64,000 nucleotides of DNA from Candidatus Ruthia sp. Plio_17_S18 (lineage in GTDB: Bacteria; Pseudomonadota; Gammaproteobacteria; PS1; Pseudothioglobaceae). The notes beneath the pieces were generated by a model. It was not told the DNA's origin. It was given only the letters and a program-made list of their open reading frames with translations, and searched no databases. The position numbers were made by a program, and so were the translations under genes. The stretch spans positions 186,001-250,000 of the forward strand of contig CP072538.1 of NCBI GenBank assembly GCA_021730105.1. The letters run 5' to 3'. Positions 55,177 through 60,172 of the stretch are shown in pieces (position 1 is the stretch's first letter; every line of letters starts with the position of its first letter).

Positions 55177-56148
55177 ATGGATAGCATCTTATTAATTAAC
55201 GGGAAAAAACAAACCAAGATCAGTGTGCTTAATCGTCTTGTACAATTCGGTGATGGCTTGTTTGAAACTTGTTTAATTGAAGATGTTAGAGTGTTGTTTT
55301 GGTCCAAGCACTTTTCAAGGCTGAAAAAAGGTTGCGATAAGTTAAAAATTCATCCAGTGAGTGAGGCCATCTGGCTTAAGGAAATTGCTAAAGCGTTCGC
55401 TATTTCTAAGTTAGACCGAGCCGTGGTTAAAATTATACTTTCTCGTGGCGAGAGTGCAAGAGGCTATGGCTATGAGAAAAACATCAAGACAACCCGTATT
55501 GTCATTATTTCTCCTATGCCTGATTTGCCATGGCAATATGAGTTGGGTGTGTGTTCTAGTGGCTACGTAAGTAATCAATTGTTGTCTGAGATTAAGCATT
55601 GTAATCGCTTGGAGCAAATTCTTGCAAGGTCAGAATTGCAAGAGCAAGAGTGCATTATGTTGGATGAAAATGCTCAGGTTATTTCAGTGACTCAAGGTAA
55701 TATTTTTTCCATTCGCAATCAGGTGATTTTTACACCTAGTTTGACTGATTGTGGTATTGATGGCACTCGAAGATCCGTGGTTTTTGATTTGGTACAAGTA
55801 CTAGGATTGCAACTTGAGATTTGTTCTTTGTCATTGACTAAACTACTTGAAGCAGATGAAGTGTTTATCACTAATAGTGTGATAGGTATTAAGCCCGTGG
55901 CTAAAATTAATCAAACATTATTTAACCATCATCAAATCACAAATCAATTAATCAGTGCCTTTGCTCGTTCTAAAAATAACCACCCATCATCAGTTTTGCT
56001 TAAATCAAAACAGTCTTATTTGAAATTTATTGTTGTATTTTTAGCGATTTTTTTGCTATTTTGGATGTATTGGGTAAATACTATCAAAGCAAATAATTCA
56101 GTTGTGTATCAAATATCTCAAGGAGCCAGCCTTAGCGCTAAAATCTAG
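55177..56148 (+). CDS. pabC: Aminodeoxychorismate lyase PabC fused to the N-terminal anchor of MltG
   Basis: Residues 1-265 are a PLP fold-type IV lyase that makes p-aminobenzoate for folate: VLNRLVQFGDGLFETCLIED, VVKIILSRGESARGYGYEK, IKHCNRLEQILARSELQEQE (conserved near the PLP Lys of the family), and VISVTQGNIFSIRN. Residues 275-323 are unlike PabC: LLKSKQSYLKFIVVFLAIFL, one membrane helix, then VYQISQGASLSAKI, the start of MltG, and a stop. pabC and mltG are adjacent in many proteobacteria, so the stop between them has been lost. A -10 (TATAAT, 55163-55168) sits only 8 nt before ATG, so the transcript may be leaderless. Confidence 0.85.
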   Translation: MDSILLINGKKQTKISVLNRLVQFGDGLFETCLIEDVRVLFWSKHFSRLKKGCDKLKIHPVSEAIWLKEIAKAFAISKLDRAVVKIILSRGESARGYGYEKNIKTTRIVIISPMPDLPWQYELGVCSSGYVSNQLLSEIKHCNRLEQILARSELQEQECIMLDENAQVISVTQGNIFSIRNQVIFTPSLTDCGIDGTRRSVVFDLVQVLGLQLEICSLSLTKLLEADEVFITNSVIGIKPVAKINQTLFNHHQITNQLISAFARSKNNHPSSVLLKSKQSYLKFIVVFLAIFLLFWMYWVNTIKANNSVVYQISQGASLSAKI

Positions 56149-56722
56149 CTAAACTTTAGCAGCAATTATGACTGAAATTAAGCAAAGCCGTCCGTATGAT
56201 GGCTATTTTGGGCCAGATACTTATCAAATTAATTATGGTGATAGTGTGTTTAAAAGAGCCCATCACATTATGGGTCAAAAACTTGCACTTGCTTGGCGTA
56301 ATAGGGCTGACGCTCTTCCCTTGGAAAACGCTGAACAAGCATTAGTACTTGCCTCTTTAATTGAAAAAGAAACGGCCAATGCACAAGAAAAACCCAAAAT
56401 TGCAGGTGTGTTCATTCGTCGCTTGCAAAAAAGCATGCGCCTACAAACCGACCCAAGTGTGGTTTATGCACTGGGTGAACATTACCAAACACCACTCAAA
56501 AAACAAGATTTAAAATTTAAAAGTCCTGACAATACCTATAGAAATAAAGGGCTGCCACCAGGGCCCATCTCCTCAGTAGGTGCAGATTCGTTATATGCAG
56601 CTATGCATCCACACATGAGTGATGCGCTTTATTTTGTTGTTAAAAAGGACGGCACTCACGCTTTTGCAAATACCTATCAACAGTATAAAGATAATATCAA
56701 CAAGTACCTAAAAAATCAATAA
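56080..56722 (+). pseudogene. mltG: MltG endolytic transglycosylase, internally deleted
   Basis: Upstream part: membrane helix and ISQGASLSAKI at the end of the PabC frame (stop at 56146-56148). Downstream part from ATG 56168: MTEIKQSRPYDGYFGPDTYQ, LASLIEKETANAQEKPKIAG (catalytic Glu), VFIRRLQKSMRLQTDPSVVY, NKGLPPGPISSVGADSLYAA and a normal C terminus at 56722. The LysM-like domain between them (roughly 150 residues) is missing and the frames differ. The catalytic domain is intact and could be made from ATG 56168, but without a membrane anchor or export signal it would stay in the cytoplasm. Confidence 0.8.
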
Positions 56723-56754: not shown

Positions 56755-57372
56755 ATGCAAAGAGGAAAATTTATCACCATTGATGGCGTTGAGGGTGCTG
56801 GGAAAAGCACACAAATTGATTTTATTTGTGACTATTTAGCCAAAAAAAACATAAATGTTATTTTAACGCGCGAGCCAGGCGGCACTGAGTTAGGTGAAAA
56901 AATCAGGACATTATTACTAAGCACTGAAACCCAATCAATACATGCTGATACTGAATTATTATTAATGTTTGCTGCTAGAAATGAGCATATGAAGACTAAA
57001 ATTATTCCAGCGCTTGAAAAAGGCGACTGGGTGTTGAGCGATCGTTTTACGGACGCTTCGTATGCTTATCAAGGTGGCGGTAGAGGTTTGAGTATTGAAC
57101 GCATCACACAGTTGGAAAAATGGGTGTTACAAGATTTTACCCCTGACGTTACTTTATTATTAGATGTGCCAGTTGCGCTAGGCATGTCACGGGTTGAATC
57201 TAGAGGCTGTAAGGATAGAATTGAACTTGAAACAAATGACTTTTTTAATCGTGTGAGAAATGGCTATATTGAGAGGTCTAAGCAATTTCCTAAGCGAATT
57301 AAGCTTATTGATGCTTCAAAAACATTTAAGCAGATCACCCAACAAATCAAAACCATTTTACAAACATTATGA
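56755..57372 (+). CDS. tmk: Thymidylate kinase
   Basis: dTMP to dTDP. 205 aa: P-loop ITIDGVEGAGKSTQIDFI, LTREPGGTELGEKIRTLLLS, DRFTDASYAYQGGGRGLS (DRx motif) and the LID region RVESRGCKDRIELE. Overlaps holB by 4 nt. Confidence 0.97.
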   Translation: MQRGKFITIDGVEGAGKSTQIDFICDYLAKKNINVILTREPGGTELGEKIRTLLLSTETQSIHADTELLLMFAARNEHMKTKIIPALEKGDWVLSDRFTDASYAYQGGGRGLSIERITQLEKWVLQDFTPDVTLLLDVPVALGMSRVESRGCKDRIELETNDFFNRVRNGYIERSKQFPKRIKLIDASKTFKQITQQIKTILQTL

Positions 57373-59704: not shown

Positions 59705-60172
59705 ATGAAGGATGATGTGGTTAAATCAGAGCTGATTAATGCTGCTAAGTTGTTGGATAATTTTAGCAAAAATATCACTATTTTTGGCTCTGCAAGAATT
59801 AACCAAGAGCATGATTTAGCAAAAAAAGCATATCAATTGGGTAAATTATTATCTGATAGTGGGTTGAATATACTAACTGGTGCTGGTCTTGGCATTATGC
59901 AAGCTGCAAATCAAGGCGCATTTGATGGCAAATCAAGCAGTATCGGGCTTAATATTAAACTACCCAAGGAGCAGATGGAAATATTAACTTTGTTACAAAC
60001 TAGAAAAGGCAAGCGCATTAAAATCTTCTTGCTTTGTGTGTCATTTTGGTCACCTATCATTATTTGGTTTGAAACACTTGCACAGCAAGGTTATATTAGT
60101 CAACAAGATTTAAATTTATTTTGCATTGTTGATGAGATAGAGCAAATACTAGCCAGTATTAAGGGTGCGTAA
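59705..60172 (+). pseudogene. LOG-family (Rossmann) protein with in-frame deletion of its active site
   Basis: 155 aa open frame. The N terminus is good: NITIFGSARINQEHDLAKKA, LTGAGLGIMQAANQGAFDGK, SIGLNIKLPKEQ. It jumps directly to EILTLLQTRKGKRIKIFLLC and a normal C terminus. In LOG proteins 50-60 residues lie between these, including the PGGxGTxxE motif needed for nucleotide 5'-monophosphate phosphoribohydrolase activity. That block is absent, so the protein cannot be catalytic even though no stop interrupts it. Shares one base with the HAD gene. Confidence 0.75.

Follow-up and report, generated by a model that had tools for sequence, protein, structure and literature searches.

The window, a stretch of DNA of 64,000 nucleotides, is part of a complete genome of 1231801 bases (G000), a single contig rated 99.98% complete. 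The named relatives that share its genus, Candidatus Ruthturnera, Ruthia and Vesicomyosocius, are symbionts of vesicomyid clams. According to the open reading frame list, the PabC frame extends from 55177 to 56148 (323 aa), continues through a hydrophobic helix and then ends at a TAG. Nineteen nucleotides beyond this stop, an ATG at 56168 opens a frame of 184 aa which runs to 56722, matches YceG/MltG and contains the motif LIEKETANA with the catalytic Glu. The original prediction had described this layout, including the identity of both genes, the PabC frame running into the MltG helix before its stop and the catalytic frame without an export signal, and was correct in these points. It had missed the TAA at 56150-56152, the 9-nt deletion near 56242, the Trp to Gly replacement at 56210-56212 and the His to Tyr replacement at H587. 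The features are as follows.

55177..55962, + strand: pabC domain (aminodeoxychorismate lyase), intact and constrained (TIGR03461, Aminotran_4, dN/dS)
55963..56016, + strand: linker from PabC to the helix (aligned with nine fused proteins, G004 among them)
56017..56079, + strand: MltG-derived transmembrane helix, codons 281-301, now the C-terminal tail of PabC (G004 protein model; hydrophobicity 2.35)
56101..56115, + strand: remnant of the first strand of a LysM-like unit, codons 309-313 (G004 protein model, pLDDT about 83 there)
56133..56134, + strand: junction of a 242-nt deletion, codons 320-400 of G004 (codon alignment)
56146..56148, + strand: TAG closing the PabC frame after the frameshift (sequence, open reading frame list)
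56150..56152, + strand: TAA in the MltG frame, codon 406, the same in G011 (codon alignment)
56168..56722, + strand: what is left open of the MltG catalytic half (184 codons), most likely a pseudogene (Pfam YceG; 2r1f match)
56210..56212, + strand: Trp to Gly, codon 426, a mostly aromatic position (W10 F8 Y4 L3 in 27 proteins)
56240..56246, + strand: site of a 9-nt in-frame deletion, codons 436-439 (codon alignment against G004)
56363..56365, + strand: retained catalytic Glu of LIEKETANA, which we take to be Glu218 of E. coli MltG (column E480, near-invariant in 27 MltG proteins)
56755..57372, + strand: tmk, intact downstream neighbor (Pfam Thymidylate_kin 4.5e-50; present in 12/12 genus genomes)

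The upstream half was identified as PabC by the equivalog model TIGR03461 (233 bits, cut-off 176.85) and by Pfam Aminotran_4 (6.6e-45), while NF004761 scored 232.2 bits, below its cut-off of 260. Presumably the PLP lysine is the one in the stretch IKHCNRLEQ (K140), which is invariant across nine fused relatives and is kept in the window copy. Codons 1-262 of PabC form an open frame in each of the 12 genus genomes. The dN/dS of the window PabC is 0.27 to G004 and 0.29 to G007, and dN/dS to G004 is 0.17-0.27 in all 11 other genus members. Judged by these ratios, the PabC half is still under selection in all 12 genus genomes.

The downstream frame scored 184.9 bits against Pfam YceG (cut-off 32.4), matching only profile positions 104-275 of 275, and 190.2 bits against TIGR00247. 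By sequence match it corresponds to positions 82-262 of the 270-residue 2r1f chain. The likeness to the MltG (YceG) structures 2r1f, 8yq7 and 4iiw is thus confined to the catalytic half, with the Glu kept; unlike these proteins, the window remnant has no in-frame helix and no LysM-like unit, and the first 81 positions of 2r1f are unmatched.

The pabC/mltG locus is homologous and adjoins tmk in all 12 genus genomes, which is more than chance. Only one of them, G004 (Ruthturnera sp. Tsphm01, CP125320.1), has an intact copy, in which a single frame of 598 codons spans both domains. The order, linker, helix, domains and tmk neighbor are the same as in the window, but the window copy is split into 323 and 184 aa, lacks codons 320-400, carries further lesions and has its MltG half closed. 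Codon alignment to G004 places the main loss at 242 nt, out of frame, which corresponds to 81 residues and not to the roughly 150 originally proposed. Additional lesions are the TAA at codon 406, the 9-nt deletion and two replacements at conserved MltG positions, W426G and, at an invariant position, H587Y. The membrane helix is no longer in the MltG frame; it sits in the PabC frame and is cut off by the stops at 56146 and 56150.

The position of the deletion was related to a structure model of the G004 protein (mean pLDDT 63.7; about 80 over the LysM-like unit; poor over 456-585 and most of the catalytic part), from which only the helix and the LysM-like stretch were used. In it, residues 281-301 form a helix and residues 309-358 a strand-helix-helix-strand unit that we take to be a LysM-like fold. 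In this moderately confident model, the deletion spares the strand 309-313, takes both helices and the second strand and runs about 40 codons beyond the unit. The LysM-like unit is therefore not kept in the window. The predicted excision of this domain was right as to the region, but since the deletion begins inside the unit and ends well past it, it is not a clean domain excision.

The fusion itself is not particular to the window. In a set of 58 genomes, 18 of the 36 relatives from the genus and family have a single frame of 598-611 codons that covers both PabC and MltG, and nine of these were translated and aligned; one further genome (G028) has both in 539 codons, with the MltG match ending early. 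Within the family, which we take to be Thioglobaceae, an MltG match was obtained in 73 of 83 genomes. Frames of 598-611 codons occur in 35 of these 73 and frames of single-gene length (317-341 codons) in 29, mostly in genus g2, which also has three fused-size frames; the other 9 are partial or broken. Outside the family, no PabC-MltG fusion was seen in 127 genomes of the class and 115 of the phylum, some of which are common to both samples (129 of 140 class genomes matched, less G000 and G007; 116 of 120 phylum genomes matched, less G000). No frame above 540 codons occurred in the 127 class genomes. Two phylum genomes have MltG frames of fused size, 605 and 593 codons (G225, G275), which were rejected as PabC fusions, since each is an MltG extended at its C-terminus that follows a fabF-like gene. 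The 540-codon frame of G128 was likewise rejected, as it is a long frame free of stops whose neighbor is a PabC of its own (all gene names by eye). As frame length was the sole test for the remaining genomes, a short fusion outside the family could be missed. In the open-access papers searched, neither a PabC-MltG fusion nor the name "Ruthturnera" was found.

From this distribution in sequenced relatives, we conclude that the fusion is ancestral to the genus and was not created in the window genome. The original prediction had read it as a new read-through event that may have newly tethered PabC to the membrane; with the fusion ancestral, the tether is old as well. Of the two aspects of the locus, the family-specific fusion is of more interest, and the decay of mltG is ordinary genome reduction.

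The reading that we consider highly likely is that the window holds a working PabC with a leftover membrane tail next to a young mltG pseudogene, both descended from a single PabC-MltG polypeptide. In the genus ancestor, this polypeptide would have had PabC in the cytosol, a helix in the inner membrane and MltG in the periplasm, a topology suggested by the domain order. The MltG half would then have become a young pseudogene via the 242-nt out-of-frame deletion, the nonsense codon, the 9-nt deletion and the replacements at conserved sites, and the PabC half would have stayed under selection, carrying the old helix as its C-terminal tail. The 184-codon frame downstream would be a remnant that has not yet been hit by a stop.

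That the lesions might instead be a sequencing or assembly error masking an intact fused gene had been considered for 56100-56170 in the original prediction, and we considered it for 56100-56250. Such an error is extremely unlikely. The lesions differ in kind (one deletion of 242 nt, another of 9 nt, a nonsense base and replacements), they lie in a single nearly complete contig, the adjoining PabC and tmk are clean, and the same locus is broken in ten other genomes of the genus.

Eleven of the 12 genus members have a broken locus, and the breaks are of at least six kinds. G002 and G010 share a single inserted base at codon 271, upstream of the helix, by which the gene was split into two overlapping frames: PabC has 275 aa, and MltG, which includes the helix, has 339 aa in G002 and 337 aa in G010. 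Both halves are intact. Near its beginning, this MltG frame (L033, L041) has only GTG or TTG starts, one of which in G002 is a TTG just before the PabC stop that would suit coupled translation. G007, the sister of G000 (support 100 in a tree of four genes, 3528 columns), carries a one-base insertion at codon 313, past the helix, so that its MltG frame of 290 aa has no helix. Because this is a separate event, G000 and G007 were broken independently. G011 has stops at codons 312, 315 and 406 and a frame of 187 aa from an ATG matching that of the window. Eroded copies are found in G008, G003, G001, G005, G006 and G009; every one of them has lost between 310 and 575 nt in a deletion and carries other lesions as well.

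An identical change from AAA to TAA at codon 406 is seen in G000 (56150-56152) and G011 (L042), which may be a chance repeat or the result of recombination. Inheritance from a common ancestor was rejected, as the two are not sisters and the intervening genomes do not have the TAA.

Private changes, seen in one genome only and therefore reflecting its later history, were compared between lineages in which the MltG half is intact (G002, G010 and G004, a pool dominated by G004) and lineages in which it is broken (G000, G007 and G011). Over MltG codons 313-598, replacement to silent changes numbered 24:36 in the intact pool versus 42:17 in the broken pool (Fisher p 0.0009), whereas for PabC the same pools gave 24:28 versus 14:17 (p 1.0). 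Codons 411-598 alone gave 17:20 versus 29:12 (p 0.038). The contrast has power only with the broken lineages pooled because G000 itself has few changes: 9:4 over codons 313-598, 7:3 over codons 411-598 and 8:4 in PabC. In G011, MltG has 15 replacement to 4 silent private changes. The pseudogene assignment in G000 thus draws on lesions absent from the intact G004 together with the pooled relaxation (p 0.0009).

We also defined 51 near-invariant MltG positions over 27 proteins from outside the genus (30 loci less three of the same genus). The departures from these residues number 6 in G000, 2 in G007, 4 in G011, 2 in G004 and none in G002 and G010. The 6 in G000 consist of five lost by deletion and H587Y, so that 45 of the 51 are kept in the window remnant, the catalytic Glu among them. 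Over the remaining MltG codons, dN/dS between G000 and G007 is 0.27 (95% 0.14-0.53), no higher than the 0.29 of PabC. Most of the time since the split was thus spent under constraint, and the decay is either recent or weak. The ratio favors a recent loss, and by itself it would also be compatible with retained function.

The absence of stops in the catalytic frame had been pointed out in the original prediction. A stop arises from about 4.7% of single changes in the remnant, and 10 private changes are seen in the open frame of G000; the probability of no stop after 10 changes without selection is 0.61. The open frame of 184 codons is therefore no sign of function.

It is very unlikely that the locus makes two proteins that both function, PabC tethered to the membrane and, apart from it, a catalytic fragment of MltG that has taken on a new role in the cytoplasm. 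Both frames are open and the Glu is kept, H587 is the only one changed among the 45 near-invariant positions after codon 410, and the pairwise dN/dS of MltG is low, all of which would agree with two products. The relative with the same arrangement that the original prediction had named as a refutation exists in part, as G011 has its similar frame from the matching ATG, but that frame is decaying too, given its excess of replacements and its 4 altered residues. Without a signal or export helix, the fragment would not come into contact with peptidoglycan. Codons 320-400 are deleted and codons 401-411 lie outside any open MltG frame, W426G and the 9-nt deletion affect the fragment itself, and by eye no Shine-Dalgarno-like stretch was found upstream of 56168. 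The pooled relaxation in the broken lineages, as well as the loss or shredding of the MltG half in six relatives, also argues against a second product.

The stops of the PabC and MltG frames lie close together, which could suggest recoding, where a ribosomal frame shift would yield a PabC-helix-MltG protein whose periplasmic part is shortened. However, PabC is closed at 56148 and MltG by its own TAA at 56150-56152. A single shift upstream of 56148 could therefore not reach the MltG remnant, and the probability of recoding is close to negligible.

The tail that a working PabC would carry beside the mltG pseudogene is hydrophobic, with a best 19-residue Kyte-Doolittle mean of 2.35 starting at residue 282, and the window product is probably a membrane-tethered PabC. 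A hydrophobic stretch behind PabC (19-residue mean of 1.8 or more, sought in 12 genomes) is present in nine; it is absent from the PabC frames of G002, G010 and G003. In the four 1.0-Mb genomes, the helix codons have few changes, mostly replacements, and selection on the helix was rejected on this ground. As the helix carries no sign of selection in this clade, the tether may be a functionless leftover.

The loss of MltG had been linked to peptidoglycan, and a search of the genome for other lytic transglycosylases, as had been suggested, did find candidates. G000 keeps two SLT frames (524 and 205 aa) and two SLT_2 frames (410 and 349 aa), so the loss need not be drastic, and these enzymes could cover for MltG. 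Decay as a consequence of wall loss was rejected: six Mur-ligase-type and two RodA/FtsW-type frames remain in G000, and wall synthesis looks present from its gene content. A PF00912 transglycosylase is broken by stops in G000 (C1:734853-735074, outside the window) and is broken also in G002 and G010; no match to PF00912 was found in G001, G005, G006, G008 and G009.

Loss of peptidoglycan genes in the vesicomyid-clam symbiont group is described in passages of PMC2642828 and PMC7826175. The present case resembles the decay treated there and in PMC7473567 in the stepwise loss of envelope and peptidoglycan genes along the clade; it differs in that the passages concerned make no mention of the pabC-mltG locus. 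The term mltG is absent from PMC7826175 and the term pabC from PMC2642828. In Pseudomonas aeruginosa, pabC and mltG are the same neighbors (PA2964 and PA2963, as given in the relevant part of PMC11898565), but they encode two proteins where the ancestor of the window copy had one. A link between folate and the cell wall has been proposed from gene neighborhoods in Pseudomonas, again in that part of PMC11898565.

Should the intact fusion work as one protein, folate and cell wall synthesis would be physically linked by it. As a tentative and somewhat doubtful extension, we propose that the intact Thioglobaceae fusion may be one transmembrane protein coupling the two pathways, which vesicomyid symbionts would be dismantling in many independent ways, in G002 and G010 by one inserted base that gives two intact overlapping genes and in most others by loss of MltG with PabC left anchored. 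The opposite fates of the two halves in 12 related genomes imply that PabC needs no MltG, and they reveal which half is seen by selection.

Other changes were observed near the locus. Between mltG and tmk, a 10-bp stretch (TATAAAATAT-like) occurs twice in the window genome (56729-56750) and once in 11 aligned relatives. Downstream of tmk lies a frame that we take to be holB-like from the usual gene order, and in G010 (L072) one inserted G where the tmk stop overlaps the start of this next gene joins the two into a frame of 542 codons. Further downstream, at 59705-60172, the window has a frame of 155 aa, and its sister G007 has about 40 residues more in mid-frame, in a stretch with PGGFGTADE, presumably a motif of LOG/lysine-decarboxylase-like proteins. 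With this in-frame internal deletion relative to G007, the frame is another likely decaying gene.
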